A DNA stretch of 64,000 bases from Theocolax elegans (taxonomy: Eukaryota; Arthropoda; Insecta; Hymenoptera; Cerocephalidae). Location of the stretch: positions 45,238,558-45,302,557 of the forward strand of contig CM047427.1 of NCBI GenBank assembly GCA_026168455.1. Direction: 5' to 3'. This document shows positions 11,457-64,000 of this stretch, piece by piece; the stretch's first letter is position 1, and each line of letters opens with the position of its first letter. Position numbers and translations under genes: made by a program. The notes beneath the pieces were generated by a model. The model made no database searches. It was not told where the DNA came from and saw only the letters and a program-made list of their open reading frames with translations.

Positions 11457-11529
11457 AGCTAGAGCCCTCCTTTAGACGCCGGTCACAGTGGCAAGCGACA
11501 TATAATGGATTTTGCGTTGCACCAAAATT

Positions 11530-14764: not shown

Positions 14765-14806
14765 GGTGTTCCGACCACGACTCTCCAGCTTTGGTCTCCT
14801 CAGTAA
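14765..14806 (-). ncRNA. Hammerhead-like core, degenerate
   Basis: Minus strand CUGAGGA, stem II GACCA/UGGUC, but GGAAC replaces GAAAC (A13 to G). Probably inactive. Confidence 0.4.
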
Positions 14807-14829
14807 CGAGCTAGAGCTTAGGGCTCCGC

Positions 14830-25858: not shown

Positions 25859-25895
25859 TGGCCTAATTTGTTACAGCTGTAGCACGGCTCTTTTT
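25780..25895 (-). pseudogene. gag zinc knuckles
   Basis: Minus strand CYSCNKLGHWAAEC is a perfect CX2CX4HX4C nucleocapsid knuckle, followed by a second, imperfect one (CHGC...QCTKC). It is in a different frame from both the capsid part and the protease, which may reflect decay or programmed shifts. Confidence 0.75.
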
Positions 25896-26065
25896 GATGA
25901 TTGTATATAATCGGGGCTCTAGCACTGCGGTTCGGATTAAGGCTGCTTACTGTTGGCTGCGGTTGTTGCGATTGCTGCTCTTGCCAGTTGTTTCTGATAT
26001 TAAAATGTTTAGGCTGTTGTGCTGCTGCTTGCTGTTGGCTCGAGTTATTGCTTCTGGCTACTTCG

Positions 26066-41290: not shown

Positions 41291-41669
41291 AAACACATGC
41301 TATTATAGTTATTTAAATAAATTGATTAAATTTACTTTTACATTAGTACATGATTCAGTAATACCCAAGCATAAAACAAAAAGTTTTTTATTGCCGATTT
41401 TAATTATTTCAATTTCATTTTTAATTAACAATTTATTTATTTCAACTTTAATCAACAATTCAGTATGTCTAAAAATGATTTTCTTTCTTTCGAAATAATA
41501 TGAACTATATTATCATTCCTTAAATTAATAGAAACACGACAAAAATTTATAATTTCACATTCTTTTAATATTTTTAACTGCTTATTCTCTTGTATAGAAT
41601 TTTCATTTATTAATAACTTATCTTTCTTATAAGTGCTTTTAGCTGCTTCTTTTTGTTCACCAATTCTTG
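41291..41669. other. Spacer before the satellite
   Basis: AT-rich. A minus-strand open frame (41452-41688) is Lys/Asn-rich and unrecognised. The satellite begins at about 41670. Confidence 0.45.
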
Positions 41670-41942
41670 TAAAATTTGAATTTTCCAACTATTAGAAAAA
41701 TTCGTGAATTTATTGCTTTCTTACACTATAAGTTGTATGATAAATGAATTTATTGATCTTTACAAGCCAAAGAAACATTCCTCACATCTCAAGTAAGGCG
41801 GACTGTAATAATACCAGCAACTTTATAAACCTCACAGGATGAGTGTTTGAAAAAAGACTAAGACAAGCTAAATCAACAAAAATATAAAATTTAGTTGATT
41901 GCAGTATAAAATTAATAAAAACTTAATAAGACGGAAAAAAAG

Positions 41943-42012
41943 TTGTATTTCGCCCTGAGTATGCTTGGTGGGCTCATCAGTAGAGTCCAGGCATCTCGTC
42001 TATAGATACGAA
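41943..42012 (-). ncRNA. Hammerhead ribozyme, type A monomer (weakened stems)
   Basis: Core boxes CUGAUGA and GAAA and stem II GCCC/GGGC are intact. Stem I is UAUAG/CUCUA with a central mismatch, stem III starts CGUAUC so one pair is lost, and loop II reads ACCAAGC, which breaks one loop-loop pair. Equivalent copies: 43026, 46799, 47339 and 48421; with small indels in stem II at 44105, 44646 and 45183; inactivated (CUGAUGG) at 45722. Confidence 0.8.
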
Positions 42013-42484
42013 TGACAGATATAAAAATTTTTGACAACCAACTGTATTCTGACGAGGAAGACATGGGGTATATATGCCCTACCGATAGCAAACTTTAATA
42101 AGTGCCACATATTAACAGGTAGCCCCCTAACGCACTTACATAGAACTAATGCCTTAATCGTCAGAATATTGTTACATAAGGCATATTCGTGATCCAATGC
42201 CATATAATTTTAAAATTTGAATTTTCCAACTATTAGAAAAATTCGTGAATTTATTGCTTTCTTACACTATAAGTTACATGATAACTGAATTAATTGATCT
42301 TTACAAGCCAAAGAACCATTCCTCACATCTCAGGTAAGGCGGATTGTATTAATACCAGCCACTTTATAAACCTCACAGGATGAGTGTTTGAAAAAGGACT
42401 AAGACAAGCTAAGTCAACAAAAATATAAAAGTTAGTTGATTGTAGTATAAAATTAATAAAAACTTAATAAGACGGAAAAAAAAA

Positions 42485-42554
42485 TTGTATTTCGCCCTGC
42501 GTATGCCTGGTGGGCTCATCAGTAGAGTCCAGGCATCTCGTCTCTAGATACAAA
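42485..42554 (-). ncRNA. Hammerhead ribozyme, type B monomer (complete)
   Basis: Minus strand, 5' to 3': stem III strand UUUGUA, with U16.1 and C17 completing the AUC cleavage triplet; stem I UAGAG/CUCUA closing a 14-nt loop; CUGAUGA; stem II GCCC/GGGC closing a 14-nt loop; GAAA; stem III strand UACAA. All joints are adjacent with no extra bases. Stems I and II are closed and stem III open (type III topology). Loop I AUGCCUGG is perfectly complementary to loop II CCAGGCAU. Cleavage is predicted after AUC. Confidence 0.92.
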
Positions 42555-43567
42555 TGACAGATATAAAAATTTTTAAAAACCAGCTGTATTCTGACGAGGA
42601 ATTCATGGGTTATATATGCCCTACCGATAGCAAACTTTAATAAGTGCCACATATTAACAGGTACCCCCTAACGCACCTACATAGAACTAATGTCTTAATC
42701 GTCAGAATATTTTTACATAAGGCATATTCGTGATCCAATGCCATATAATTTTAAAATTAGAATTTTCCAACTATTAGAAAAATTCGTGAATTTATTGCTT
42801 TCTTACACTATAAGTTACATGATAAATGAATATATTGATCTTTACAAGCCAAAGAAACATTCCTCACTTCTCAAGTAAGGCGGATTGTATTAATACCAGC
42901 AACTTTATAAACCTCACAGGATGAGTGTTTGAAAAAAGGACTAAGACAAGCTAAGTCAACAAAAATATAAAATTTAGTTGATTGCAGTATAAAATTAATA
43001 AAAACTTAATAAGACGGAAAAAAAGTTGTATTTCGCCCTGAGTATGCTTGGTGGGCTCATCAGTAGAGTCCAGGCATCTCGTCTATAGATACGAATGACA
43101 GATATAAAAATTTTTGACAACCAACTGTATTCTGACGAGGAAGACCTGGGGTATATATGCTCTACCGATAGCAAACTTTAATAAGTGCCACATATTAACA
43201 GGTAGCCCCCTAACGCACTTACATAGAACTAATGCCTTAATCGTCAGAATATTGTTACATAAGGCATATTCGTGATCCAATGCCATATATTTTAAAATTT
43301 GAATTTTCCAACTATTAGAAAAATTCGTGAATTTATTGCTTTCTTACACTATAAGTTACATGATAACTGAATTAATTGATCTTTACAAGCCAAAGAACCA
43401 TTCCTCACATCTCAGGTAAGGCGGATTGTATTAATACCAGCTACTTTATAAACCTCACAGGATGAGTGTTTGAAAAAGGACTAAGACAAGCTAAGTCAAC
43501 AAAAATATAAAAGTTAGTTGATTGTAGTATAAAATTAATAAAAACTTAATAAGACGGAAAAAAAAAA

Positions 43568-43637
43568 TTGTATTTCGCCCTGCGTATGCCTGGTGGGCTC
43601 ATCAGTAGAGTCCAGGCATCTCGTCTCTAGATACAAA
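43568..43637 (-). ncRNA. Hammerhead ribozyme, type B monomer (complete)
   Basis: Same sequence as the motif at 42485-42554; all stems and core positions intact. Confidence 0.9.
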
Positions 43638-46261
43638 TGACAGATATAAAAATTTTTAAAAACCAGCTGTATTCTGACGAGGAATTCATGGGTTATATAT
43701 GCCCTACCGATAGCAAACTTTAATAAGTGCCACATATTAACAGGTACCCCCTAACGCACCTACATAGAACTAATGTCTTAATCGTCAGAATATTTTTACA
43801 TAAGGCATATTCGTGATCCAATGCCATATAATTTTAAAATTTGAATTTTCCAACTATTAGAAAAATTCGTGAATTTATTGCTTTCTTACACTATAAGTTA
43901 CATGATAATGAATATATTGATCTTTACAAGCCAAAGAAACATTCCTCACTTCTCAAGTAAGGCGGATTGTATTAATACCAGCAACTTTATAAACCTCACA
44001 GGATGAGTGTTTGAAAAAAGACTAAGACAAGCTAAGTCAACAAAAATATAAAATTTAGTTGATTGCAGTATAAAATTAATAAAAACTTAATAAGACGAAA
44101 AAAAAGTTGTATTTTCGCCCCTGAGTATGCTTGTGGCTCATCAGTAGAGTCCAGGCATCTCGTCTATAGATACTAATGACAGATATAAAAATTTTTAAAA
44201 ACCAGCTGTATTCTGACGAGGAATTCATGGGTTATATGCCCTACCGATAGCAAACTTTAATAAGTGCCACATATTAACAGGTACCCCCTAACGCACCTAC
44301 ATAGAACTAATGTCTTAATCGTCAGAATATTTTTACATAAGGCATATTCGTGATCCAATGCCATATAATTTTAAAATTAGAATTTTCCAACTATTAGAAA
44401 AATTCGTGAATTTATTGCTTTCTTACACTATAAGTTACATGATAAATGAATATATTGATCTTTACAAGCCAAAGAAACATTCCTCACTTCTCAAGTAAGG
44501 CGGATTGTATTAATACCAGCTACTTTATAAACCTCACAGGATGAGTGTTTGAAAAAAGACTAAGACAAGCTAAGTCAACAAAAATATAAAAGTTAGTTGA
44601 TTGTAGTATAAAATTAATAAAAACTTAATAAGACGGAAAAAAAAATTGTATTTCGCCCTGAGTATGCTTGGTGGCTCATCAGTAGAGTCCAGGCATCTCG
44701 TCTATAGATACGAATGACAGATATAAAAATTTTTGACAACCAACTGTATTCTGACGAGGAATTCATGGGTTATATGCCCTACCGATAGCAAACTTTAATA
44801 AGTGCCACATATTAACAGGTACCCCCTAACGCACCTACATAGAACTAATGTCTTAATCGTCAGAATATTGTTACATAAGGCATATTCGTGATCCAATGCC
44901 ATATAATTTTAAAATTAGAATTTTCCAACTATTAGAAAAATTCGTGAATTTATTGCTTTCTTACACTATAAGTTACATGATAACTGAATTAATTGATCTT
45001 TACAAGCCAAAGAAACATTCCTCACTTCTCAAGTAAGGCGGATTGTATTAATACCAGCCACTTATAAACCTCACAGGATGAGTGTTTGAAAAAAGACTAA
45101 GACAAGCTAAGTCAACAAAAATATAAAATTTAGTTGATTGCAGTATAAAATTAATAAAAACTTAATAAGACGGAAAAAAAAATTGTATTTCGCCCTGAGT
45201 ATGCTTGGTGGCTCATCAGTAGAGTCCAGGCATCTCGTCTATAGATACGAATGACAGATATAAAAATTTTTGACAACCAACTGTATTCTGACGAGGAAGA
45301 CCTGGGGTATATATGCTCTACCGATAGCAAACTTTAATAAGTGCCACATATTAACAGGTAGCCCCCTAACGCACTTACATAGAACTAATGCCTTAATCGT
45401 CAGAATATTTTTACATAAGGCATATTCGTGATCCAATGCCATATAATTTTAAAATTTGAATTTTCCAACTATTAGAAAAATTCGTGAATTTATTGCTTTC
45501 TTACACTATAAGTTACATGATAAATGAATATATTGATCTTTACAAGCCAAAGAAACATTCCTCACTTCTCAAGTAAGGCGGATTGTATTAATACCAGCAA
45601 CTTTATAAACCTCACAGGATGAGTGTTTGAAAAAAGACTAAGACAAGCTAAGTCAACAAAAATATAAAATTTAGTTGATTGCAGTATAAAATTAATAAAA
45701 CTTAATAAGACGGAAAAAAAAGTTGTATTTCGCCTGAGTATGCGTTGGTGGGCCATCAGTAGAGTCCAGGCATCTCGTCTATAGATACGAATGACAGATA
45801 TAAAAATTTTTTGACACCAACTGTATTCTGACGAGGAAGACATGGGTATATATGCCCTACCGATAGCAAAACTTTAATAAGTGCCACATATAACAGGTAG
45901 CCCCCTAACGCCACTACATAGAACTAATGCCTTAATCGTCAGAATATTGTTACATAAGGCTATTCGTGATCCAATGCCATATAATTTTAAATTTGAATTT
46001 TCCAACTATTAAAAAATTCGTGAATTTATTGCTTTCTTACACTATAAGATTCATTAAGTAACTGAATTAATTGATCTTTACAAGCCAAAGAACCATTCCT
46101 CACATCTCAGGTAAGGCGGATTGTATTAATAACCAGCCACTTTATAACCTCACAGGATGAGTGTTTGAAAAAGGACTAAGACAAGCTAAGTCAACAAAAA
46201 TATAAAAGTTAGTTGATTGTAGTATAAAATTAATAAAAACTTAATAAGACGGAAAAAAAAA

Positions 46262-46331
46262 TTGTATTTCGCCCTGCGTATGCCTGGTGGGCTCATCAGT
46301 AGAGTCCAGGCATCTCGTCTCTAGATACAAA
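46262..46331 (-). ncRNA. Hammerhead ribozyme, type B monomer (complete)
   Basis: Third fully intact type B copy. The fourth B-like copy, at 47883-47953, has CUGAUAA and GGAC in stem II and should be inactive. Confidence 0.9.
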
Positions 46332-48564
46332 TGACAGATATAAAAATTTTTAAAAACCAGCTGTATTCTGACGAGGAATTCATGGGTTATATGCCCTACC
46401 GATAGCAAACTTTAATAAGTGCCACATATTAACAGGTACCCCCTAACGCACCTACATAGAACTAATGTCTTAATCGTCAGAATATTTTTACATAAGGCAT
46501 ATTCGTGATCCAATGCCATATAATTTTAAAATTAGAATTTTCCAACTATTAGAAAAATTCGTGAATTTATTGCTTTCTTACACTATAAGTTACATGATAA
46601 ATGAATATATTGATCTTTACAAGCCAAAGAAACATTCCTCACTTCTCAAGTAAGGCGGATTGTATTAATACCAGCAACTTTATAAACCTCACAGGATGAG
46701 TGTTTGAAAAAAGACTAAGACAAGCTAAGTCAACAAAAATATAAAATTTAGTTGATTGCAGTATAAAATTAATAAAAACTTAATAAGACGGAAAAAAAGT
46801 TGTATTTCGCCCTGAGTATGCTTGGTGGGCTCATCAGTAGAGTCCAGGCATCTCGTCTATAGATACGAATGACAGATATAAAAATTTTTGACAACCAACT
46901 GTATTCTGACGAGGAAGACCTGGGGTATATATGCTCTACCGATAGCAAACTTTAATAAGTGCCACATATTAACAGGTAGCCCCCTAACGCACTTACATAG
47001 AACTAATGCCTTAATCGTCAGAATATTGTTACATAAGGCATATTCGTGATCCAATGCCATATAATTTTAAAATTTGAATTTTCCAACTATTAGAAAAATT
47101 CGTGAATTTATTGCTTTCTTACACTATAAGTTACATGATAACTGAATTAATTGATCTTTACAAGCCAAAGAAACATTCCTCACATCTCAAGTAAGGCGGA
47201 CTTGTAATAATACCAGCAACTTTATAAACCTCACAGGATGAGTGTTTGAAAAAAGACTAAGACAAGCTAAATCAACAAAAATATAAAATTTAGTTGATTG
47301 CAGTATAAATTAATAAAAACTTAATAAGACGGAAAAAAAGTTGTATTTCGCCCTGAGTATGCCTTGGTGGGCTCATCAGTAGAGTCCAGGCATCTCGTCT
47401 ATAGATACGAATGACAGATATAAAAATTTTTGACAACCAACTGTATTCTGACGAGGAAGACCTGGGGTATATATGCTCTACCGATAGCAAACTTTAATAA
47501 GTGCCACATATTAACAGGTAGCCCCCTAACGCACTTACATAGAACTAATGCCTTAATCGTCAGAATATTGTTACATAAGGCATATTCGTGATCCAATGCC
47601 ATATAATTTAAAATTTGGAATTTTCCAACTATTAGAAAAATTCGTGAATTTATTGCTTTCTTACACTATAAGTTACATGATAACTGAATTAATTGATCTT
47701 TACAAGCCAAAGAACCATTCCTCACATCTCAGGTAAGGCGGATTGTATTAATACCAGCCTACTTTATAAACCTCACAGGATGAGTGTTTGAAAAAGGACT
47801 AAGACAAGCTAAGTCAACAAAAATATAAAAGTTAGTTGATTGTAGTATAAAATTAATAAAACTTAATAAGACGGAAAAAAAAATTGTATTTCGTCCTGCG
47901 TATGCCTGGTGGGCTTATCAGCAGAGTCCAGGCATCTTGTCTCTAGATATAAATGACAGATAAAAAATTTTTGAAAACCAGCTGTATTCTGACGAGGAAT
48001 TCATGGGTTATATATGCCCTACCGATAGCAAACTTTAATAAGTGCCACATATTAACAGGTACCCCCTAACGCACCTACATAGAACTAATGTCTTAATCGT
48101 CAGAATATTTTTACATAAGGCATATTCGTGATCCAATGCCATATAATTTTAAAATTTGAATTTTCCAACTATTAGAAAAATTCGTGAATTTATTGCTTTC
48201 TTACACTATAAGTTACATGATAAATGAATATATTGATCTTTACAAGCCAAAGAAACATTCCTCACTTCTCAAGTAAGGCGGATTGTATTAATACCAGCAA
48301 CTTTATAAACCTCACAGGATGAGTGTTGAAAAAAGACTAAGACAAGCTAAGTCAACAAAAATATAAAATTTAGTTGATTGCAGTATAAAATTAATAAAAA
48401 CTTAATAAGACGGAAAAAAAGTTGTATTTCGCCCTGAGTATGCTTGGTGGGCTCATCAGTAGAGTCCAGGCATCTCGTCTATAGATACGAATGACAGATA
48501 TAAAAATTTTTGACAACCAACTGTATTCTGACGAGGAAGACATGGGGTATATATGCCCTACCGA

Positions 48565-48586
48565 TAGCAAACTTTAATAAGTACCA
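48565..48586. other. Inversion point between the two satellite arrays
   Basis: TATATGCCCTACCGA on the left and its reverse complement TCGGTAGGGCATATA on the right flank a 22-bp spacer. From here array 2 continues as the inverted counterpart of array 1. Confidence 0.9.
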
Positions 48587-48659
48587 TCGGTAGGGCATAT
48601 ATACCCAATGTCTTCCTCGTCAGAATACAGCTGGTTGTCAAAAATTTTTATATCTGTCA

Positions 48660-48730
48660 TTTGTATCTAGAGACGAGATGCCTGGAGTCTACTGATGAGC
48701 CCACCAGGCATACTCAGGGCGAAATGCAAT
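48660..48730 (+). ncRNA. Hammerhead ribozyme, array 2, nearly intact
   Basis: CUGAUGA, GCCC/GGGC and GAAA intact, loops I and II fully complementary. Stem I has lost its loop-proximal pair (GUCUA) and stem III has one G-U pair (UGCAA). Confidence 0.8.
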
Positions 48731-49488
48731 TTTTTTTCCGTCTTATTAAGTTTTTATTAATTTTGTACTACAATCAACTAACTTTTATATTTTTGTTGAC
48801 TTAGCTTGTCTTAGTCTTTTTTCAAACACTCGTCCTGTGAGGTTTATAAAGTGGCTGGTATTAATACAGTCCGCCTTACTTGAGATGTGAGGAATGTTTC
48901 TTTGGCTTGTAAAGATCAATAAATTCATTTATCAATATAACTTATAGTGTAAGAAAGCAATAAATTCACGAATTTTCCTAATAGTTGGAAAAATCAAATT
49001 TTACAATTATATGGCATTGGATCACGAAAATGCCTTACGTAACAATATTCTGACGATTAAGACAATAGTTCTATGTAAGTGCGTTAGGGGGCTACCTGTT
49101 AAGGGGGGAGCCTGCTTTAGAGGCTTCAAAAAATCGTTTTTTTTTTTGCCTGAATCTTTTCCTAAACTATCCAAGAATATGTCTCTAAAATTTCAAAACA
49201 AAATTCGGAATATTTTCGGTGATACAGAAGAAATAGTGAGCAAGCGTCGAGCAGGTATCCGAGCGTCCGGGCCGCCCCTCGATCTATTGTGTATATTATA
49301 ATGGAAAGGGACTAACGGTTCTTCAAAACGGTTTAACTGTTTATAGAAGGTCTCTATGAAGCTATGGGAGGGGCAAAAATGTTATTGTAACGGTATATAT
49401 GAGCTGGCAACGTCGGCTCGAACAGAGCTACATTCAGCTTTACTGTTCAGTTTAAATTTGTCTCTCAGTACGTGAGCATCTTAAAAAT

Positions 49489-52014
49489 ATGGAAGCCTAT
49501 CCGAAAATGAGCAAATCTTCGAGTGAGCGTAGTGCAAGGCCACGGAAGCGCAAATTCTACGGCAATCAATTTGTGAATGTTTCTTCATCGGACGATGGAG
49601 AAGCTAATACCAGCCGCAGTGAGCAGAAATTGGCATCGGCGACTACGGACGGACGTTATAGTTTATCCGTCTCATTGTTACCGCATAATCGAGTTTGTGT
49701 CTGTGTTTTTAGCAATTTCGGAGTTAGTTATTTGCAATTTGTGTAAGCAAAAAATAACGTTCGCCGAAAGCAACCATCGAGGTTTAGGATTTAAAATTAT
49801 TTTGTCGTGTCGCTGCGGTAAACGAGAAATCGAATCCGGACCGTTGATTCACACCGGATACGAAATCAACAGAAGAATTGTGTTCGTCATGAGGCTTTTG
49901 GGTGTCGCACGAGAAGGCATAAATATTTTTTGTGGTCTTCTGGATTTATCTCAAGGCATAGGCTTAGCAAAATCGACGTATGACAAAATCGTGGAACATC
50001 TGTATACAGCATCGAAAACGATGTTTGAAAGTGCGTGCAAAAGTGCTATCGAAGAAGTAAACAACTAAATGTGCAAAATGAAAGACCAGCTGACCATTTG
50101 AAAGTTTCGGGCGATGGATCGTGGAAAAAACGTGGATTCACTTTCTGTACGGTGTAACTACACTTATTGGCTACTACAGTGGCAAAGTGATTGATCTCGA
50201 TGTTAAAAGCGGATATTGTCATACCTGCACTCTCAAGAAAATGCGTTGAACGACGACGAGTATGAAGAATGGTATGAAACCATAAAGATAATTGTTCTTC
50301 GAGTGAGCGTAGTGCAAGGCCACGGAAGCGCAAATTCTACGGCAATCAATTTGTGAATGTTTCTTCATCGGACGATGGAGAAGCTAATACCAGCCGCAGT
50401 GAGCAGAAATTGGCATCGGCGACTACGGACGACGTTATAGTTTATCCGTCTCATTGTTACCGCATAATCGAGTTTGTGTCTGTGTTTTTAGCAATTTCGG
50501 AGTTAGTTATTTGCAATTTGTGTAAGCAAAAAATAACGTTCGCCGAAAGCAACCATCGAGGTTTAGGATTTAAAATTATTTTGTCGTGTCGCTGCGGTAA
50601 ACGAGAAATCGAATCCGGACCGTTGATTCACACCGGATACGAAATCAACAGAAGAATTGTGTTCGTCATGAGGCTTTTGGGTGTCGCACGAGAAGGCATA
50701 AATATTTTTTGTGGTCTTCTGGATTTATCTCAAGGTATAGGCTTAGTAAAATCGACGTATGACAAAATAGTGGAACATCTGTATACAGCATCGAAAACGA
50801 TGTTTGAAAGTGCGTGCAAAAGTGCTATCGAAGAAGTAAATCAACTAAATGTGCAAAATGAAAGACCAGCTGACCATTTGAAAGTTTCGGGCGATGGATC
50901 GTGGAAAAAACGTGGATTCACTTTTCTGTACGGTGTAACTACACTTATTGGCTACTACAGTGGCAAAGTGATTGATCTCGATGTTAAAAGCGGATATTGT
51001 CATACCTGCACTCTCAAGTAAAATGCGTTGAACGACGACGAGTATGAAGAATGGTATGAAACCGATAAAGATAATTGTTCTTCGAATCACGCAGGCTCCG
51101 CCGGAAAGATGGAAGTTGATTCAATCACCGAAATGTTCTCAAGATCCATCTAGAAATGTGGAGTAATGTATAGCAATTATATTGGCGACGGCGACTCCAA
51201 AACATTTCTTGGCATCGTGAACAATAATCCATACGGCGACAAGTGTACAGTGACTAAAAACGAGTTCGTGGGACACGTACAAAAGCGCATGGGTACTCGT
51301 CTCCGCAACAAGAGAAAAGAACAGAATCTCGGTGGAAAGAAGCGGCTCACAGAGACTGTAATAAAAAAACTAACAATGTATTATGGTCTCGCGATTCGAA
51401 AAAATTTAAACTCTGTAGAAGGTATGAGAAGTGCAATAATGGCGACACTTGATCACTATTGCTCTACAGCTAAATTGTTTCGCCACGACAACTGCCCCGA
51501 AGGCGCCGAAAGCTGGTGTGAATGGCGCAAAGCAGAAGCAAAAAATACTTTGGCTGATTTTAAAAATCCACCGCGCCTAATTGACGACGATATTGAATAA
51601 CATATTCGTCCTATATACGAGGAATTATCAAAGGATGATTTATTAACAAGGTGCTTGGGTGGACACACGCAGAATGCTAACGAGTCATTCAATTCAACCG
51701 TACGGCGCATGACGACAAACACCTTCATTCGGGGTTTAAAATAGCTCAGACTGCTGCTTTCATCGCTGGAGGGATGTTTAATGAAGGCTACAGTGCAGTA
51801 TTAAAAACTATGCACTTATTAGACTTGAAAATTGAGCTCCAGTGCAAAAATTTTTGCGATAAAGCGGACGAGGATCGCGTCACGCGTCAAAACAGGCGCG
51901 CCACATTGGAGACCAAAGAGGCCAGAACAGCCCGTCGAATGGAGCAATTGACCGAAAACCAATTTTTTGAAGAGTCTGAAGAGCAGTTATATGGAGCAGG
52001 AATCGCTGATTAGC
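49489..52014 (+). pseudogene. Kolobok/Mutator-like transposase, duplicated and broken
   Basis: ATG at 49489 opens a basic, serine-rich start. A zinc-ribbon-like part follows (VICNLCKQKITF, then LSCRCGKRE). Family blocks are KVSGDGSWKKRGFTFLYGVT (first catalytic Asp), YIGDGDSKTFLGIVNNNPYG (second Asp), HVQKRMGTRLRN, and CLGGHTQNANESFN (glutamate), as in the Pfam 'Mutator-like transposase' group. About 780 bp (49519-50298) are repeated in tandem at 50299-51078, so the zinc part and the SGDGSW block occur twice. Frameshifts lie near 49655, 50063 and 51018, and stops near 51150 and 51598. The enzyme cannot be made from this copy. Confidence 0.85.
49519..51078 (+). repeat. 780-bp internal tandem duplication in the transposase
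   Basis: The two halves are about 99 percent alike. The joint carries TCTTCGA, present at both parental sites (49515 and 51080), a 7-bp microhomology. Confidence 0.9.
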
Positions 52015-53251
52015 ATATTAATAGGGTAAGTTCAAGAAATTTACGATTTTTTGTGAACGAAAACTTTGACACGCGATTTCTCGGATTTCTATTTTGACGA
52101 TTTTTTCAAATTGGCGAGCAAGATAGAAAAAAAAGTAAACGTCCTATCGAAACGGGTCGATAGCATTGTATTCAGGATTAAATTCTCTTCTGGGTGAACC
52201 TAAAATACCTTAAGAAAGTTAACATTAACTCGGTTTTTCAACGATCTGAAGTGAATTTTTTTTTTTAATCTGCGAAAAAATGTTGAATTTTTCACTTTTT
52301 GTTGAATTTTCTTGGTTCACCTAGGAATGACACTATTGAAAATAAAAAATTTCTTTGGTTTTTTTGTTTCAGATGAAAATTGCGACCTGCATCTTGCTCG
52401 CCACAAAGAAAGTACACACTCGAGGCGCCTCCGCAAATTTCTTGTAGCATGAAGAATATCTCATGCATGGTAATAAAAAAATTTGAGAAAACTCTTCAAA
52501 TATATAAGAATAAATCCTAAAAGTTTCATTTTAATCAGACATTTCTTTCCTTCCCAATAAAATCCTCGAAAATATCGATTTTTTGAAGCCTCTAAAGCAG
52601 GCTCCCCCCTTAATATGTGGCACATATTACAGTTTGCTATCGGTAGGGCATATATACCCCATGTCTTCCTCGTCAGAATACAGCTGGTTTTCAAAAATTT
52701 TTAAATCTGTCATTCGTATCTAGAGACGAGATGCCTGGACTCTACTGATGAGCCCACCAGGCATACTCAGGGCGATATACAATTTTTTTTCCGTCTTATT
52801 AAGTTTTTATTAATTTTATACTACAATCAATTAAATTCCATATTTTTGTTGACTTAGCTTGTCTTAGTCTTTTTTCAAACACTCGTCTTGTGAGGTTTAT
52901 AAAGTGGCTGGTATTAATACAGTCCAGCTTACTTGAGATGTGAGGAATGTTTCTTTGGCTTGTAAAGATCAATAAATTCATTTATCATATAACTTATAGT
53001 GTAAGAAAGCAATAAATTCACGAATTTTTCTAATAGTTGGAAAAATCAAATTTTAATATTATATGGCATTGGATCACGAAAATGCCTTACGTAACAATAT
53101 TCTGACGATTAAGACAGTAGTTCTATGTAAGTGCGTTAGGGGGCTACCTGTTAATATGTGGCACTTATTAAAGTTTGCTATCGGTAGGGCATACATACCC
53201 CATGTCTTCCTCGTCAGAAAACAGTTGGTGGTCAAAAATTTATATCTGTCA

Positions 53252-53323
53252 TTTGTATCTAGAGACGAGATGCCTGGACTCTACTGATGAGCTCACCAGG
53301 CATACTCAGGGCGAAATACAATT
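53252..53323 (+). ncRNA. Hammerhead ribozyme, array 2, intact core
   Basis: UAGAG/CUCUA, CUGAUGA, GAAA and UUGUA/UACAA all present; stem II is GCUC/GGGC with one U-G pair. Loops remain fully complementary. The preceding copy at about 52714 has GAUA in place of GAAA. Confidence 0.85.
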
Positions 53324-55776
53324 TTTTTTCCGTATTATTAAGTTTTTAATAATTTTATATTACAATCAACTAAATTTTTAGTGCGTTAGGGGGTACCTGT
53401 TAATATGTGGCACTTATTAAAGTTTGCTATCGGTAGGGCATATATACCCCATGTCTTCCTCGTCAGAATACAGCTGGTTTTCAAAAAATTTTTTATCTGT
53501 CATTTATATCTAGAGACAAGAAGCCCGAACTCTACTGATTAGCCCACCAGGCATACTCAGGGCGAAATACAATTTTTTTTTCCGTCTTATTAAGTTTTTA
53601 ATAATTTTATACTAAAATCAACTAAATTTCATATTTTTGTTGACTTAGCTTGTCTTAGTCTTTTTTCAAACACTCATCCTGTGAGGTTTATAAAGTGGCT
53701 GGTACTAATAAAGTCCGCCTTACTTGAGATGTGAGGAATATTTCTTTGGCTTGTAAAGATCAATAAATTCCTTTATCATATAACTTATAGTGTAAGAAAG
53801 CAATTAATTCACGAATTTGTCTAATAGTTGGAAAGATCCAATTTTAAAATTATATGGCATTGGATCACGAAAATGCTATATGTAACAAGATTCTGACGAT
53901 TAAGACATTAGTTCTATGTAAGTGCGTTAGGGGGCTACCTGTTAATATGTGGCACATATTAAAGTTTGCTATCGGTAGGACATATATACCCCATGTCTTC
54001 CTCGTCAGAATACAGCTGGTTTTCAAAAATTTATATCTGTCATTTGTATCTAGAGACAAGAAGCCTGGACTCTGCTGATAAGCCCACCAGGCATACTCAG
54101 GGCGATATACAATTTTTTTTCCGTCTTATTAAGTTTTTATTAATTTTATACTACAATCAACTAAATTTTATATTTTAGTTGATTGAGCTTGTCTTAGTCT
54201 TTTTTCAAACACTCATCCTGTGAGGTTTATAAAGTGGCAGGTATTAATACAGTCCACCTTATTTGAGATGTGAGGAATGGTTCTTTGGCTTGTAAAGATC
54301 AATAAATTCATTTATCATATAAGTTATAGTGTAAGAAAGCAATAAATTCACGAATTTTTCTGATAGTTGGAAAATTCAAATTTTAAAATTATATGGCATT
54401 TGATCACGAACATGCCTTATGTAACACTATTCTGACGATTAAGACATTAGTTCTATGTAAGTGCGTTAGGGGGCTACCTGTTAATATGTGGCACTTATAA
54501 CCTTTGCTATCGGTAGGGCCTATATACCCCATGTCTTCCTCGTCAGAATACAGCTGGTTTTCAAAAAATTTTTTATCTGTCATTTGTATCTAGAGACAAG
54601 ACCCCGGACTCTACTGAGTAGCCCACCAGGCATACTCAGGGCGAAATACATTTTTTTTTTTCCGTCTAATTAAGTTTTTATTAATTTTATACTACAATCA
54701 ACTAAATTTTATATGTTTGTTGACTTAGCTTGTCTTAGTCTTTTTTCAAACACTCGTCCCGTGAGGTTTATAAAGTGGCTTGTATTAATACAGTCCGCCT
54801 TACTTAAGATGTGAGGAATGTTTCTTTGGCTTGTAAAGATCAATAAATTCATTTATCATATAACTTATAGTGTAAGAAAGCAATAAATTCACGAATATTT
54901 CTAATAGTTGGAAAAATGAAATTTTATAATTATATGGCATTGGATCACGAAATGCTATATGTAACAAAATTCTGACGATTAAAACATTATTTCTATGTAA
55001 GTGCGTTAGGGGGCTACCTTTAATATGTGGCACTTATAACCTTTGCTATCGGTAGGGCATATATACCCCATGTCTTCCTCGTCAGAATACAGCTGGTTTC
55101 AAATATTTTTTATCTGTCATTTGTATCTAGAGACAAGAGCCCGGACTCTACTGAGTAGCCCACCAGGCATACTCAGGGCGAAATCCCCATGTCTTCCTCA
55201 TCAGAATACAGCTGGTTTTCAAAATTTTTTTATCTGTCATTTGTATCTAGAGACAAGAAGCCCGGACTCTACTGATTAGCCCACCAGGCATACTCAGGGC
55301 GAAATACAATTTTTTTTTCCGTCTTATTAAGTTTTAAATAATTTTATACTACAATCAGCTAATTTATATTTTTGTTGACTTAGCTTGTCTTAGTCTTTTT
55401 TCAAACAATCATCCTGTGAGGTTCATAAAGTGGCTGTATTATATAGTCCGCCTTACTTGAGATGTGATAAATGTTTCTTTGGCTTGTAAAGATCAATAAA
55501 TTCATTTTACATATAAATTATAGTGTAAGAATCGCATAAATTCACTAATTTTTCTAATAGTTGGAAAAATCAAATTTTAAATTATATGGCATTGGATCAC
55601 GAAAATGACTATACGTAACAATATTCTGACGATTAAGACATAGTTCTATGTAAGTGCGTTAGGGGGCTACCTGTTAATATGTGGCACTTATTAAAGTTTG
55701 CTATCGGTAGGGCATATATACCCCATGTCTTCCTCGTCAGAATACAGCTGGTTTTCAAAAATTTTTTTATCTGTCA

Positions 55777-55847
55777 TTTGTATCTAGAGACAAGAAGCCC
55801 GGACTCTACTGATTAGCCCACCAGGCATACTCAGGGCGAAATACAAT
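55777..55847 (+). ncRNA. Hammerhead relic with G8 to U (representative)
   Basis: All stems are kept but the core reads CUGAUUA; loop I has GCCCGG in place of GCCUGG. The same core occurs at about 53500, 55237, 56315 (with an extra G), 56853, 57395, 58472, 59010, 61247 and 61791. A related core, CUGAGUA, occurs at about 54580, 55122, 57937, 59546, 60082, 62330, 62863, 63398 and 63935; one copy near 54040 reads CUGAUAA. Loss of G8 should abolish cleavage. Confidence 0.8.
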
Positions 55848-58800
55848 TTTTTTCCGTCTTATTAAGTTTTTAATAATTTTATACTACAATCAGCTAAATT
55901 TTATATTTTTGTTGACTTAGCTTGTCTTAGTCTTTTTTCAAACAATCATCCTGTGAGGTTCATAAGTGGCTGGTATTAATATAGTCCGCCTTACTTGAGA
56001 TGTGAGAAATGTTTCTTTGGCTTGTAAAGATCAATAAATTCATTTATCATATAAATTATAGTGTAAGGAAGGCAATAAATTAACGAATTTTTATAATAGT
56101 TGGAAAAATCAAATTTTAAATTATATGGCATTGGATCACGAAAATGACTATACTGTAACAAATTCTGACGATTAAGACAATTAGTTCTATGTAAGTGCGT
56201 TAGGGGGCTACCTGTTAATATGTGGCACTTATAAACGTTTGCTATCGGTAGGGCATATATACCCCATGTCTTCCTCGTCAGAATACAGCTGGTTTTCAAA
56301 ATTTTTTATCTGTCATTTGTATCTAGAGACAAGAAGCCCGGACTCTACTGGATTAGCCCACCAGCATACTCAGGGCGAAATACAATTTTTTTTCCGTCTT
56401 ATTAAGTTTTAATAATTTATACTACATCAGCTAATTTTATATTTTGTTGACTTAGCTTGTCTTAGTCTTTTTTCAAACAATCATCCTGTGAGGTTCATAA
56501 AGTGGCTGGTATTAATATAGTCCGCCTTACTTGAGATGTGATAAATGTTTCTTTGGCTTGTAAAGATCAATAAATTCATTTATCATATAATTTATAGTGT
56601 AGAAAGCAATAAATTCACGAATTTTTCTAATAGTTGGAAAAATCAAATTTTAAATTATATGGCATTGGATCACGAAAATGACTATATGTAACAAAATTCT
56701 GACGATTAAGACAATAGTTCTATGTAAGTGCGTTAGGGGGTACCTGTTAATATGTGGCACTTATTAAAGTTTGCTATCGGTAGGGCATATATACCCCATG
56801 TCTTCCTCTTAGAATACAGCTGGTTTTCAAAAAATTTTTTATCTGTCATTTGTATCTAGAGACAAGAAGCGCGGACACTACTGATTAGCCCACCAGGCAT
56901 ACTCAGGGCGAAATACAATTTTTTTTTCCGTCTTATTAAGTTTTTAATAATTTTATACTACAATCAGCTAAATTTTATATTTCTGTTGACTTAGCTTGTC
57001 TTAGTCTTTTTTCAAACACATCGTTCTGTGAGGTTTATAAAGTGGCTGGTATTAATATCAGTCCGCCTTACTTGAGATGTGAGGAATGTTTCTTTGGCTT
57101 GTAAAGATCAATAAATTTATTTATCATATAACTTATAGTGTAAGAAAGCAATTAATTCACAAATTTTCTAATTATTGGCCAAATCAAATTTTAAAATTAT
57201 ATGGCATTGGATCACGAAAATGCTTACGTAACAATATTCTGACGATTAAGAAAATAGTTCTATGTAAGTGCGTTAGGGGGCTACCTGTTAATATGTGGCA
57301 CTTATTAAAGTTTGCTATCGGTAGGGCATATATACCCCATGTCTTCCTCGTCAGAATACAGCTGGTTTTCAAAAAATTTTTTATCTGTCATTTGTATCTA
57401 GAGACTAAGAAGCCCGGACTCTACTGATTAGCCCACCAGGCATACTCAGGGCGAAATACAATTTTTTTTTTCCGTCTTATTAAGTTTTAATAATTTTATA
57501 CTACAATCAGCTAAATTTAATATTTTTGTTGACTTAGCTTGTCTTAGTCTTTTTTCAAACAATCATCCTGTGAGGTTTATAAAGTGGCTGGTATTAAATA
57601 CAGTCCGCCTTACTTAAGATGTGAGGAATGTTTCTTTGGCTTGTAAAGATCAATAAATTCATTTATCATATAAATTATAGTGTAAGAAAGCAATAATTCA
57701 CGAATTTTCTAATAGTTGGAAAAATCAAATTTTATAAATTATATGGCATTGGATCACGAAAATGCTATATGTAACAATATTCTGACGATTAAGACATTAT
57801 TTCTATGTAAGTGCGTTAGGGGCTACCTGTTAATATGTGGCACTTAGAACCTTTGCTATCGGTAGGGCATATATACCCCATGTCTTCCTCGTCAGAATAC
57901 AGCTGGTTTTACAAAATTTTTTTATCTGTCATTTGTATCTAGAGACAAGAAGCCCCGGACTCTACTGAGTAGCCCACCAGGCATACTCAGGGCGAAATAC
58001 AATTTTTTTTCCGTCTTATTAAGTTTTAATAAATTTATACTACAATCAGCTAAATTATATATTTTGTTGACTTAGCTTGTCTTAGTCTTTTTCAAACACT
58101 CGTCCTGTGAGGTTTATAAAGTGGCTTGTATTAATACAGTCCGCCTTACTTAAGATGTGAGGAATGTTTCTTTGGCTTGTAAAGATCAATAAATTCATTT
58201 ATCATATAATTTATAGTGTAGGAAAGCAATAAATTAACGAATTTTTCTAATAGTTGGAAAAAATCAAATTTTAAATTATATGGCATTGGATCACGAAAAT
58301 GACTTACGTAGCAATATTCTGACGATTAAGACAATAGTTCTATGTAAGTGCGTTAGGGGCTACCTGTTAATATGTGGCACTTATTAAAGTTTGCTATCGG
58401 TAGGGCATATATACCCCATGTCTTCCTCGTCAGAATACAGCTGGTTTTCAAAAATTTTTATATCTGTCATTTGTATCTAGAGACAAGAAGCCCGGACTCT
58501 ACTGATTAGCCCACCAGGCATACTCAGGGCGAAATACAATTTTTTTTCCGTCTTATTAAGTTTTTAATAATTTTATACTACAATCAGCTAAATTTTATAT
58601 TTTGTTGACTTAGCTTGTCTTAGTCTTTTTTCAAACAATCATCCTGTGAGGTTCATAAAGTGGCTGGTATTAATATAGTCCGCCTTACTTAAGATGTGAG
58701 GAATGTTTCTTTGGCTTGTAAAGATCAATAAATTCATTTATCATATAATTATAGTGTAGGAAAGCAATAAATTCACGAATTTTTCTAATAGTTGGAAAAA

Positions 58801-60165
58801 TCAAATTTTTAAATTATATGGCATTGGATCACGAAAATGCTTACGTAGCAATATTCTGACGATTAAGACAATAGTTCTATGTAAGTGCGTTAGGGGGCTA
58901 CCTTTAATATGTGGCACTTATTAAAGTTTGCTATCGGTAGGGCATATATACCCCATGTCTTCCTCGTCAGAATACAGCTGGTTTTCAAAAATTTTTTATC
59001 TGTCATTTGTATCTAGAGACAAGAAGCCCGGACTCTACTGATTAGCCCACCAGGCATACTCAGGGCGAAATACAATTTTTTTTCCGTCTTATTAAGTTTT
59101 TAATAATTTTATACTACAATCAGCTAAATTTTATATTTTGTTGACTTAGCTTGTCTTAGTCTTTTTTCAAACAATCATCCTGTGAGGTTCATAAAGTGGC
59201 TGGTATTAATATAGTCCGCCTTACTTGAGATGTGATAAATGTTTCTTTGGCTTGTAAAGATCAATAAATTCATTTATCATATAAATTATAGTGCAAGAAT
59301 GCAATAAATTCACTAATTTTTATAATAGTTGGAAAAATCAAATTTTAAAATTATATGGCATTGGATCACGAAAATGCTATATGTAACAAAATTCTGACGA
59401 TTAAAACATTATTTCTATGTAAGTGCGTTAGGGGGCTACCTTTAATATGTGGCACTTATAAACTTTGCTATCGGTAGGGCATATATACCCCATGTCTTCC
59501 TCGTCAGAATACAGCTGGTTTTCAAATATTTTTTTATCTATCATTTGTATCTAGAGACAAGAAGCCCGGACTCTACTGAGTAGCCCACCAGGCATACTCA
59601 GGGCGAAATACAATTTTTTTTCCGTCTTATTAAGTTTTTAATAATTTTATACTACAATCAGCTAAATTTTATATTTTGTTGACTTAGCTTGTCTTAGTCT
59701 TTTTTCAAACAATCATCCTGTGAGGTTCATAAAGTGGCTGGTATTAATATAGTCCGCCTTACTTGAGATGTGATAAATGTTTCTTTGGCTTGTAAAGATC
59801 AATAAATTCATTTATCATATAAATTATAGTGTAAGAATGCAATATTCACTAATTTTTTTAATAGTTGGAAAAATGAAATTTTAAAATTATATGGCATTGG
59901 ATCTCGAAAATGCTATATGTAACAATATTCTGACGATTAAAACATTATTTCTATGTAAGTGCGTTAGGGGGCTACCTGTTAATATGTGGCACTTATAACC
60001 TTTGCTATCGGTAGGGCATATATACCACATGTCTTCCTCGTCAGAATACAGCTGGTTTTCAAATATTTTTTTATCTGTCATTTGTATCTAGAAACAAGAA
60101 GCCAGGACTCTACTGAGTAGCCCACCAGGCATACTCAGGGCGAAAAAAAAAATTTATATCTGTCA

Positions 60166-60236
60166 TTTGTATCTAGAGACGAGATGCCTGGACTCTACTG
60201 ATGAGCCCACCGGGAATACTCAGGGCGAAATATAAT
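60166..60236 (+). ncRNA. Hammerhead ribozyme, array 2, intact core
   Basis: Follows a short irregular unit. CUGAUGA and GAAA intact, stem I UAGAG/CUCUA; stem III UAUAA gives one U-G pair. Loop II reads ACCGGGAAU, so loop complementarity is reduced. Confidence 0.75.
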
Positions 60237-60708
60237 TTTTTTTTTCCGTCTAATTAAGTTTTTATTAATTTTATACTACAATCAACTAAATTTTATATAT
60301 TTGTTGACTTAGCTTGTCTTAGTCTTTTTTCAAACACTCGTCCCGTGAGGTTTATAAAGTGGCTTGTATTAATACAGTCCGCCTTACTTAAGATGTGAGG
60401 AATGTTTCTTTGGCTTGTAAAGATCAATAAATTCATTTATCATATAACTTATAGTGTAAGAAAGCAATAAATTCACGAATATTTCTAATAGTTGGAAAAA
60501 TGAAATTTTATAATTATATGGCATTGGATCACGAAAATGCTATATGTAACAAAATTCTGACGATTAAAACATTATTTCTATGTAAGTGCGTTAGGGGCCA
60601 CCTGTTAATATGTGGCACTTATTAAAGTTTGCTATCGGTAGGGCATATATACCCCATGTCTTCCTCGTCAGAATACAGCTAGGTTTTCAACAAATTTTTT
60701 ATCTGTCA

Positions 60709-60779
60709 TTTGTATCTAGAGACGAGAAGCCTGGACTCTACTGATGAGCCCACCAGGCATACTCAGGGCGAAATACAAT
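60709..60779 (+). ncRNA. Hammerhead ribozyme, array 2, intact core
   Basis: CUGAUGA, GCCC/GGGC, GAAA, UAGAG/CUCUA and UUGUA/UACAA intact; six of eight loop-loop pairs remain (loop I AAGCCUGG). Confidence 0.85.
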
Positions 60780-63700
60780 TTTTTTTTCCGTCTTATTAAT
60801 TTTTTAATTAATTTATACTACAATCAACTAAATTTATATTTTTGTTGACTTAGCTTGTCTTAGTCTTTTTTCAAACACTTATCCTGTGAGGTTTATAAGT
60901 GGCTGGTATTAATACAGTCCGCCTTACTTAGATGTGAGGAATGTTTCTTTGGCTTGTAAAGATCAATAAATTCATTTATCATATAATTATAGTGTAAGAA
61001 ATGCAATAAATTCACGAATTTTTATAATAGTTGGAAAATCAAATTTTAAAATTATATGGCATTGGATCACGAAAATGCTATATGTAACAATATTCTGACG
61101 ATTAAGACAATTAGTTCTATGTAAGTGCGTTAGGGGGCTACCTGTTAATATGTGGCACTTATTAAAGTTTGCTATCGGTAGGGCATATATACCCCATGTC
61201 TTCCTCGTCAGAATACAGCTGGTTTTCAAAAATTTTTTATCTGTCATTTGTATCTAGAGACAAGAAGCCTGGACTCTACTGATTAGCCCACCAGGCATAC
61301 TCAGGGCGAAATACAATTTTTTTTCCGTCTTATTAAGTTTTTATAATTTTATACTACAATCAAGCTAAATTTTATATTTTGTTGACTTAGCTTGTCTTAG
61401 TCTTTTTTCAAACACTCATCCTGTGAGGTTATAAAGTGGCTGGTATTAATACAGTCCGCCTTACTTTAGATGTGAGAAATGTTTCTTTGGCTTGTAAAGA
61501 TCAATAAATTCATTTATCATATAAGTTATAGTGTAAGAAAGCAATAAATTCACGAATTTTTCTATAGTTGGAAAATTCAAATTTTAAAATTATATGGCAT
61601 TGGATCACGAAAATGACTTACGTAGCAATATTCTGACGATTAAGACAATAGTTCTATGTAAGTGCGTTAGGGGGCTACCTGTTAATATGTGGCACTTATT
61701 AAAGTTTGCTATCGGTAGGGCATATATACCCCATGTCTTCCTCGTCAGAATACAGCTGGTTTTCAAAAATTTTTTTATCTGTCATTTGTATCTAGAGACA
61801 AGAAGCCCGGACTCTACTGATTAGCCCACCAGGCATACTCAGGGCGAAATACAATTTTTTCTCCGTCTTATTAAGTTTTTAATAATTTTATACTACAATC
61901 AGCTAAATTTTATATTTTTGTTGACTTAGCTTGTCTTAGTCTTTTTTCAAACAATCATCCTGTGAGGTTCATAAAGTGGCTGGTATTAATATAGTCCGCC
62001 TTACTTGAGATGTGATAATGTTTCTTTGGCTTGTAAAGATCAATAAATTCATTTATCATATAAATTATAGTGCAAGAATGCAATAAATTCACTAATTTTT
62101 ATAATAGTTGGAAAAATCAAATTTTAAAATTATATGGCATTGGATCACGAAAATGCTATATGTAACAAAATTCTGACGATTAAAACATTATTTCTATGTA
62201 AGTGCGTTAGGGGGCTACCTTTAATATGTGGCACTTATAAACTTTGCTATCGGTAGGGCATATATACCCCATGTCTTCCTCGTCAGAATACAGCTGGTTT
62301 TCAAATATTTTTTATCTAGTCATTTGTATCTAGAGACAAGAAGCCCGGACTCTACTGAGTAGCCCACCAGGCATACTCAGGGCGAAATACAATTTTTTTT
62401 CCGTCTTATTAAGTTTTTAATAATTTTATACTACAATCAGCTAAATTTTATATTTTTGTTGACTTAGCTTGTCTTAGTCTTTTTTCAAACAATCATCCTG
62501 TGAGGTTCATAAAGTGGCTGGTATTAATATAGTCCGCCTTACTTGAGATGTGATAAATGTTTCTTTGGCTTGTAAAGATCAATAAATTCATTTATCATAT
62601 AAATTATAGTGTAAGAATGCAATAAATTCACTAATTTTATAATAGTTGGAATAATCAAATTTTAAAATTATATGGCATGGATCACGAAAATGCTATATGT
62701 AACAATATTCTGACGATTAATAGTTCTATGTAAGTGCGTTAGGGGGCTACCTGTTAATATGTGGCACTTATAACCTTTGCTATCGGTAGGGCATATATAC
62801 CCTATGTCTTCCTCGTCAGAATACAGCTGGTTTTCAAATATTTTTTATCTGTCATTTGTATCTAGAGACAAGAAGCCCGGACTCTACTGAGTAGCCCACC
62901 AGGCATACTCAGGGCGAAATACAATTTTTTTTTCCGTCTTATTAAGTTTTTAATAATTTTATACTACAATCACTAAATTTTATATTTTTGTTGACTTAGC
63001 TTGTCTTAGTCTTTTTTCAAACACTCAGTCCCGTGAGGTTTATAAGTGGCTTGTATTAATACAGTCCGCCTTACTTAAGATGTGAGGAATGTTTCTTTGG
63101 CTTGTAAAGATCAATAAATTCATTTATCATATAACTTATAGTGTAAGAAAGCAATAAATTCACGAATATTTCTAATAGTTGGAAAAATGAAATTTTATAA
63201 TTATATGGCATTGGATCACGAAAATGCTATATGTAACAAAATTCTGACGATTAAAACATTATTTCTATGTAAGTGCGTTAGGGGCTACCTTTAATATGTG
63301 GCACTTATAACCTTTGCTATCGGTAGGGCATATATACCCCATGTCTTCCTCGTCAGAATACAGCTGGTTTTTAAATATTTTTTTATCTGTCATTTGTATC
63401 TAGAGACAAGAAGCCCGGACTCTACTGAGTAGCCCACCAGGCATACTCAGGGCGAAATACAATTTTTTTTCCTTCTTATTAATTTTTTAATAATTTATAC
63501 TACAATCAACTAAATTATATATTTTTGTTGACTTAGCTTGTCTTAGTCTTTTTTCAAACACTCGTCCTGTGAGGTTTATAAAGTGGCTTGTATTAATACA
63601 GTCCGCCTTACTTGAAGATGTGAGGAAATGTTTCTTTGGCTTGTAAAGATCAATAAATTCATTTATCATATAAATTATAGTGTAAGAAATGCAATAAATT

Positions 63701-64000
63701 CACGAATTTTCTAATAGTTGGAAAAATCAAATTTTAAAATTATATGGCATTGGATCACGAAAATGACTATACGTAACAATATTCTGACGATTAAGACAAT
63801 TAGTTCTATGTAAGTGCGTTAGGGGGTACCTGTTAATATGTGGCACTTATAACCTTTGCTATCGGTAGGGCATATATACCCCATGTCTTCCTCGTCAGAA
63901 TACAGCTGGTTTTCAAAAATTTTTTATCTGTCATTTGTATCTAGAGACAAGAAGCCCGGACTCTACTGAGTAGCCCACCAGGCATACTCAGGGCGAAATA

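Follow-up and report, generated by a model that had tools for sequence, protein, structure and literature searches.

A dispersed ~540-bp repeat with a type III hammerhead motif in the genome of Theocolax elegans

The tandem array and its hammerhead motif

The DNA analysed here, hereafter the window, is a stretch of 64,000 nt from the hymenopteran insect Theocolax elegans (assembly GCA_026168455.1, 658 Mb in 1277 contigs; contig CM047427.1, here C3, nt 45238558–45302557). Its right-hand part carries a tandem repeat with a unit of ~540 bp, in which 38 aligned copies of a segment resembling a type III hammerhead ribozyme were found between nt 41667 and 64000; copies of the same repeat are dispersed in the genome, and the form of these copies suggests a mobile element. 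Within the window, the repeat occupied nt 41667–49102 and 52610–64000, with 32 full units of 532 to 543 bp, measured between predicted cleavage sites, and three shorter spacings of 251, 120, and 85 bp between such sites, confirming the ~540-bp tandem unit described in an earlier note on this DNA. The GC content was 31–34% across most of the array, and monomers of two types, A and B, alternated, giving the array a higher-order structure.

The ribozyme sense was on the minus strand left of nt ~48586 and on the plus strand right of it. The left array part (nt 41667–48586, minus strand) began near monomer position 332 (positions are counted from the cleavage site in RNA sense), close to a class of RNA-3′ ends at ~340 described below. 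It was followed, after the strand switch, by a short part (nt 48587–49102, plus strand) that reached up to an inserted transposon, the two units at the switch standing head to head with their RNA-3′ ends outward, which is the orientation also found in dispersed inverted inserts. The right array part (nt 52610–64000, plus strand) ran on past the right edge of the window to coordinate 78868 in window numbering, and more pieces of the array lay at 91459–91997 and 102039–103043, where the DNA examined ended. The inverted junction at nt 48526–48624 also matched the plant microRNA family MIR5274 (54.7 bits, E = 3.6e-9, cut-off 100), probably just as a long palindrome. The transposon inside the array (nt 49103–52609, 3.5 kb) had 34-bp terminal inverted repeats, a TTAA duplication, and a Mutator-like transposase domain (PF20700) spread over several interrupted frames, with a duplicated segment inside; judging from the target duplication, it looks Kolobok-like. 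Its transposase had 242 database matches, and among the 120 listed those with a named source came from arthropods.

In the type B copies on the minus strand, the hammerhead elements followed one another in the order UUGUA plus UC, UAGAG, a 14-nt loop, CUCUA, CUGAUGA, GCCC, a second 14-nt loop, GGGC, and GAA plus A plus UACAA, giving a stem I of 5 bp, a stem II of 4 bp, and a stem III of 5 bp plus A15.1-U16.1. The earlier note had placed a complete consensus at nt 42485, 43568, and 46262; all three sites were found to contain it in the correct order, on the minus strand. The Rfam model RF00008 (Hammerhead_3) aligned over its full length at nt 42484–42554, 43567–43637, and 46261–46331 with 34.5 bits each, the E-value being 1.2e-4 when 6.1 kb were searched and 1.2e-3 for all 64 kb. 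The covariance-model check proposed in that note therefore gave a divided answer, as the match was full-length and its E-value significant but the gathering cut-off of 48.5 bits was not reached in the window; membership in RF00008 by the curated cut-off was dropped, the best score among the genomic candidates scored being 42.9 bits.

A strict descriptor, in which every core base was required and each stem had to keep four or more pairs, was matched by 7 of the 38 window copies. On one strand of 1.102 Gb of first-order random sequence it was matched once, and never with at least 6 complementary loop bases. Chance resemblance, to which only the score under the Rfam cut-off would point, is excluded on the strength of this difference, together with the RF00008 E-value of 1.2e-4, and we regard its probability as negligible. 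The attributes of type III, namely a CUGANGA...GAAA core, an NUH triplet, closed stems I and II, and an open stem III, were observed in 7 of the 38 copies under the strict descriptor and in 12 of the 38 with looser stems. Thus, sequence, descriptor, and covariance model agree that the hammerhead motif is real and of type III as the earlier note had held, and they support a potential of its transcripts for the self-cleavage that the note proposed.

Besides the three type B copies, of which that at nt 42484–42554 would be cut between nt 42547 and 42546, several copies on the plus strand were of note. The copy at nt 48660–48730 had an intact core with 4 of 5 pairs in stem I, and that at nt 53252–53322 was an intact type III hammerhead which RF00008, run over the whole window, did not match at E ≤ 5; intact copies were also located at nt 60166–60236 and 60709–60779. 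Type A was represented on the minus strand by the copy at nt 41942–42012, which had an intact core and a single mismatch in either of stems I and III, with similar copies at nt 43025, 46799, 47340, and 48421. Loop I (AUGCCUGG) and loop II (CCAGGCAU) showed perfect complementarity over 8 nt in five of the seven strict copies; 8 nt of complementarity were seen, for instance, at nt 42484–42554, 48660–48730, and 53252–53322, while it covered 6 nt in one strict copy (nt 60709–60779) and 3 nt in another (nt 60166–60236). According to the accessible part of Perreault et al. (PMC3088659), about 40% of hammerheads are estimated to form a pseudoknot between stems I and II, a contact that matters for speed. 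Exact searches of IMG/VR with a 27-mer and of GTDB genomes with a degenerate 33-mer gave no matches.

Cleavage after nt 60173 and 60716 is predicted to yield an RNA of 543 nt (unit 60174–60716), since the two copies bracketing this unit are intact and on the same strand. Release of ~540-nt RNAs, as proposed in the earlier note, is thus possible for such intact same-strand neighbours, but most neighbours in the window array were broken; the length predicted for products of the left array part is ~540 nt or some multiple of it, depending on type A, because other copies separate the type B copies. An unusual stability of the unit RNA was considered and dropped (unit 60174–60716, z = -0.99 in sense and -1.60 in antisense).

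Dispersed copies and their insertion anatomy

A 22-mer from the ribozyme core, CTCTACTGATGAGCCCACCAGG, had 1064 exact occurrences in the genome, its reversed control none; a 25-mer taken elsewhere in the monomer had 907 (control 0). From the first 100 of the 1064 core places, all on contig C1, 40 loci (L009–L048) were fetched. In a second sample seeded with the 25-mer, comprising the 68 listed places before C1:55.28 Mb in 33 loci and counting truncated units as misses, the exact 22-mer was present at the expected distance at 44 of the 68 places and at least once in 21 of the 33 loci. Unlike the big arrays, the shorter copies of this second sample mostly keep the core. Where the earlier note saw a satellite, the genome-wide evidence describes a dispersed retroelement, of which the arrays are one form.

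In the genome-wide scan with RF00008, in which 68 of 79098 candidates were scored, 14 places at other loci outscored the window repeat, with a best score of 42.9 bits (e.g. C360:54986–55059, C4:79792325–79792396, and C1:64832144–64832216); none of these exceeded the 48.5-bit cut-off, and 14 control genomes contained no such place. The higher-scoring places may represent further type III families. A second, different type III hammerhead-like motif was observed on the minus strand at nt 11409–11484 of the window, which we read as GGCG, UC, a bulged stem I, CUGAGGA, GACCA/UGGUC, GAAA, and CGCC. It was matched by a custom model with E = 8.6e-4, but not by Rfam (RF00163, 15.8 bits, E = 0.55). Related copies were located at nt ~14662–14817, without GAAA, and at nt 1307–1500 of locus L031, which retains core and GAAA; its exact core occurred 4 times genome-wide (control 0).

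For 41 inserts of the ~540-bp repeat, including one duplicated pair (L025 and L032), the fetched sequence covered both edges. Of the 41, 17 lay between direct repeats ≥10 bp long, versus 30 of 1628 mismatched left-right pairs, and 14 between repeats ≥11 bp long, versus 10 of 1628. These target site duplications (TSDs) were 10–17 bp long, and the 16 independent ones had an A+T content of 82%, in an AT-rich genome. The outer RNA-3′ ends fell into three narrow classes, at monomer positions 265–276, 334–343, and 306, which together cover 23 of 538 positions and contained 43 of 59 ends; class 306 consists of copies lacking a stretch before the end. Only 1 of 21 RNA-5′ ends lay within these classes, the rest being scattered from 8 to 530, with none at position 1. 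The interval between the ~270 and ~335–341 classes, a putative "tail", corresponds to nt 60986–61057 of the window (plus strand, placed by counting from the cut at nt 60717), and a 9-bp hairpin forms in the predicted fold of the corresponding region of a left-array unit. The insert ends inspected bore neither poly-A nor simple-repeat tails.

Twenty of the 41 inserts were inverted, all with the 3′ ends outward and none in the opposite arrangement, and 21 were on a single strand. Both ends could be classed in 11 inverted inserts, 10 of them independent (L010, L012, L015, L021, L025, L033, L041, L042, L043, and L045), and each of the 10 combined an end near 270 with one near 340 (or at 306). The central junctions of the inverted inserts were at varied positions. 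Several inserts spanned the cleavage site and covered almost a full circle (L031 from 355 to 335, L035 from 252 to 269, and L040 from 238 to 270), which requires the template to have been circular or an uncleaved multimer. TSDs, end classes, and inverted inserts with outward 3′ ends together bear the signature of target-primed reverse transcription in which both target strands were primed on a single RNA. They also make it very improbable that the repeat is plain satellite DNA with a self-cleaving motif, spread purely by DNA recombination and leaving the dispersed copies as fragments: such an origin would suit the long arrays with their inversions and A/B alternation, as well as the decayed ribozymes within them, but not the target duplications, the two recurrent end positions, and the solely outward 3′ ends of the dispersed inserts.

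The probable source of the reverse transcriptase and the role of the ribozyme

The window also contains, at nt 7841–8323, the GIY-YIG end of a Penelope-like element (PLE; PF01541, 23.3 bits vs cut-off 22.6). Genome-wide, 150 of 4969 GIY-YIG candidates were scored as matches, some in open frames of 857–931 aa; PLEs with long frames lie, for example, at C7:38973841, C4:74328041, and C5:27951121. Among neighbouring pairs of these matches less than 8 kb apart, 16 were in the order minus-plus, none in the order plus-minus, and 12 on the same strand; as this orientation bias is the same as that of the repeat, it is counted as support for a PLE partner. The purified PLE protein of Anolis cleaves and extends both target strands, prefers AT-rich targets, and starts at two internal sites, the interval between them being the "tail" of genomic copies (PMC11167929). 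Two internal start sites, extension of both strands, and an AT-rich target are likewise indicated by the inserts of the ~540-bp repeat.

The same repeat might have been moved by an ordinary long interspersed element (LINE) through twin priming, from which target duplications of 10–17 bp and inverted inserts with outward 3′ ends are expected, as is a second priming site that varies. The observed TSDs and inverted inserts fit this expectation, and the window contains an RNase H sequence resembling those of LINEs at nt 11532–11867. However, both ends were fixed, one of each being used in every classed independent inverted insert; the tails looked for at the inspected ends were not seen; and the orientation bias is shared by PLE copies, the comparison covering PLE copies only. 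A LINE is therefore considered an unlikely vehicle.

Together, the motif, the dispersal, the target duplications, the end positions, and the inverted form, all legible in the sequence itself, point to a non-autonomous retrozyme without long terminal repeats (LTRs) that bears a type III hammerhead and was most likely moved by the reverse transcriptase (RT)/GIY-YIG protein of a PLE, a reading to which we assign a probability of roughly 0.7; cleavage, circularization, and the identity of the enzyme are what we infer from them. Tandem or dimeric copies would be transcribed, probably by RNA polymerase II. A run of 6–11 T follows the ribozyme in 32 of the 38 window copies, and T runs would stop RNA polymerase III. 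The hammerhead, as suggested by its motif, would cut multimeric transcripts after AUC, and the units may close into circles, by analogy with the metazoan elements treated in the accessible part of PMC7229834. The PLE protein would then bind the RNA near the 270–341 tail and make a staggered cut in AT-rich DNA; both broken target strands would prime at two fixed RNA sites ~70 nt apart; and repair would leave inverted, single, or multimeric inserts, although the anatomy of the inserts displays products and not steps. Some loci would then expand into arrays in which the ribozymes decay, as illustrated by the window and other arrays. A more specific form of this scheme, that the repeat is a retrozyme parasitic on the PLE, whose released (circular) RNA lies on a dimeric RT with the two ends of the staggered break seated on the two different fixed sites ~70 nt apart and both extended simultaneously by reverse transcription, is put forward tentatively, the odds being somewhat against it.

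A number of results weigh against the retrozyme reading. Some concern the samples and thresholds: the 40 fetched loci were all on one contig and picked by an intact core, 24 of the 41 inserts had no target duplication of 10 bp, and 16 of the 59 RNA-3′ ends fell outside the classes, although for some of these the BLAST match may end early. Others concern the partner, as comparison of the repeat with the truncated PLE in the window showed no sequence link (best E = 0.24), and the Anolis PLE (PMC11167929) showed equal start sites on the two strands, dispensed with its hammerhead, and used unprocessed RNA as its main substrate. The ribozymes themselves were often decayed. In the window, 24 of 38 cores were broken and 2 were intact but had a weak stem II. 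The other 12 combined an intact core with no fewer than 4 pairs in every stem; five of them belonged to type A and showed mismatches in both stem I and stem III. When scored in a second way, the copies came out as 12 intact, 3 weak, and 23 broken. The claim of the earlier note that every monomer carries a hammerhead was thus too strong, 18 of the 24 broken cores having U at position 8 (G8U; 9 CUGAUUA and 9 CUGAGUA). In a PLE hammerhead, G8C abolishes cleavage, G8U not having been assayed in that study (PMC11167929). In the right-hand continuation of the array, 25 of 32 cores were broken and 5 intact, and another large array, on C1, had 30 broken and 9 intact cores among 46, while in the array at L027 all 14 ribozymes were scored intact. 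We read the long window array as a secondary expansion whose ribozymes have mostly decayed.

Folding adds to these points. With pseudoknots ignored, the minimum-energy fold of type B was a nested hairpin that uses the kissing bases (-18.2 kcal/mol, vs -9.8 kcal/mol for the hammerhead), the kissing duplex alone amounting to -12.8 kcal/mol; competition between the two predicted folds is a real risk for ribozyme activity. Within the window, the ribozyme was no more conserved than the remainder of the unit, with nucleotide diversities of 0.068 vs 0.031 in the left part and 0.051 vs 0.054 in the right part. In the dispersed copies, its divergence outside the 22 ascertained bases was 0.035 vs 0.049 elsewhere, a level of conservation that is not exceptional, since 155 of 420 comparison intervals were lower; the most conserved 60-nt stretch outside the ribozyme in these copies was located at about monomer positions 382–442 (nt 61098–61158 of the window, plus strand). 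Covariation was weak, with 1 double-change pair vs 0.4 in shuffles and a score that 14 of 500 shuffles also reached. Neither strong purifying selection acting on the ribozyme nor clear covariation was accordingly retained as a finding.

These data bear on whether the insertion biology outlined above might be correct with the hammerhead as a mere passenger or fossil, its cleavage irrelevant to present spread. Unexceptional conservation, weak covariation, and the insertion of unprocessed RNA by a PLE in vitro with a dead hammerhead (PMC11167929) are in keeping with this, as is the placing of 0 of 21 outer RNA-5′ ends at the cleavage site, which circles would explain too. On the other side, the exact core was kept at most of the places seeded outside the ribozyme, and stem III showed a compensatory change from G-C to A-U, altered on both sides, in four loci (L011, L015, L027, and L045), perhaps as a single event; by strict pattern, this A-U lineage comprises 23 copies in the four loci, including the 14-copy array at L027. 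A passenger hammerhead is thus judged doubtful, though a better candidate than movement by a LINE, and conservation neither proves nor excludes current ribozyme function.

Other remnants of transposons were observed in the window at nt 93–587, 3222–3701, 36254–36727, 17276–18426, and 24745–27929. They comprised frames that we read as mariner/Tc-like (that at nt 93–587 without a Pfam match), a piggyBac-type transposase (PF13843), and a retrotransposon gag/protease gene (PF03732 below cut-off, and PF13975). The gag protein had 13 database matches, of which the one with a named source was a weak match to Trichogramma. A tRNA-like match on the minus strand at nt 19817–19890 scored 26.1 bits (cut-off 29), was not detected by ARAGORN, and is possibly a tRNA-derived short interspersed element.

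Comparison with known hammerhead-bearing elements

In the accessible text of PMC7229834 and PMC7761336, type I hammerheads are described as dominating metazoan genomes and type III hammerheads as dominating plants and their circular RNAs. Published animal cases of type III exist, however, so that the earlier note, which regarded this type as unusual for animal genomes, was right in degree only. As reported in the portions consulted, PMC7936874 describes type III hammerheads with loop-loop pseudoknots in toad and termite delta-like RNAs, two termite genomes, Drosophila pseudoobscura, and other Diptera, with no further cases of the pseudoknotted form in the hymenopterans, hemipterans, and cockroach searched, and PMC6155905 an atypical one in mammalian Clec2. 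The Theocolax motif shares with the delta-like RNA, termite, and Diptera hammerheads (PMC7936874) the type, a first stem I segment of 5 bp, and occurrence in insect genomes, and its complementary loops I and II may allow the same Watson-Crick contact. The termite genomic motifs, as presented there, are isolated and have longer helices I and II, whereas that of Theocolax is part of a ~540-bp repeat and has simple stems of 5 and 4 bp. Type III hammerhead elements of insects are mentioned as work in preparation in the part of PMC7761336 seen, and our literature search, whose scope mostly left out subscription papers and thus provides no proof of novelty, found no described type III insect retrozyme.

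The retrozymes described from animals are of type I, and the accessible parts of the cited literature do not establish which RT serves them. The genome of T. elegans offers about a thousand type III copies whose inserts record where and how reverse transcription began, and resident PLEs whose open frames of more than 900 aa make the question of the partner directly testable. If correct, the parasitism proposed above would name the partner of an animal retrozyme and reveal asymmetric priming at two sites. The repeat would also give the type III hammerheads of insects, so far reported in delta-like RNAs and as isolated genomic motifs, a connection with a mobile element, which bears on the origin of hammerhead-bearing circular RNAs.

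With PLEs (PMC11167929), the repeat shares two internal RT starts bounding an optional tail, cutting and extension of both target strands, AT-rich targets, a nearby hammerhead, and tandem copies. The interval between the starts is 30–40 nt in PLEs and ~70 nt in the repeat, the PLE hammerhead differs from the type III motif, and the start sites of the PLE study are alike on both strands, whereas each inverted insert of the repeat uses one of each. Unlike PLEs, the repeat has no open reading frame of note across its unit, in which no search aimed at GIY-YIG or RT domains was made. The satellite pDo500 of Dolichopoda cave crickets is likewise an insect satellite with a hammerhead in the repeat, but according to the accessible part of PMC2837043 its hammerhead is more conserved than the rest and has 19 compensatory mutations, neither of which was seen in the Theocolax repeat; the single/dimeric topologies of the two are not directly comparable.

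Plant LTR retrozymes, as characterized in the parts of PMC7229834 and PMC7761336 consulted, are, like the repeat, non-autonomous retroelements of several hundred nt with a hammerhead of type III. They are described there as having two LTRs, a primer binding site, a polypurine tract, TSDs of 4 bp, a length of ~700 bp, and a GC content above 55%, in contrast to the TSDs of 10–17 bp, the GC content of ~33%, and the single, multimeric, or inverted inserts of the Theocolax repeat. An assignment to the plant LTR retrozymes was therefore rejected, the TSDs not being 4 bp and two flanking LTRs being absent.

The closest agreement was with the metazoan non-LTR retrozymes of coral, mussel, and axolotl, which in the available text of PMC7229834 are low-GC non-coding repeats with one hammerhead per unit and single to many tandem copies, without described LTRs, with TSDs longer than 4 bp, and with PLEs in the same genome, all as in Theocolax. 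The two classes of RNA-3′ ends and the inverted inserts seen in the Theocolax repeat do not figure in the portions of that text consulted. Their hammerheads are of type I and their length, as given there, is ~170–400 nt, whereas the Theocolax repeat has a type III hammerhead and a unit of ~540 nt, and for these two reasons it is best regarded as a variant of the metazoan non-LTR retrozymes and not as a plain member.

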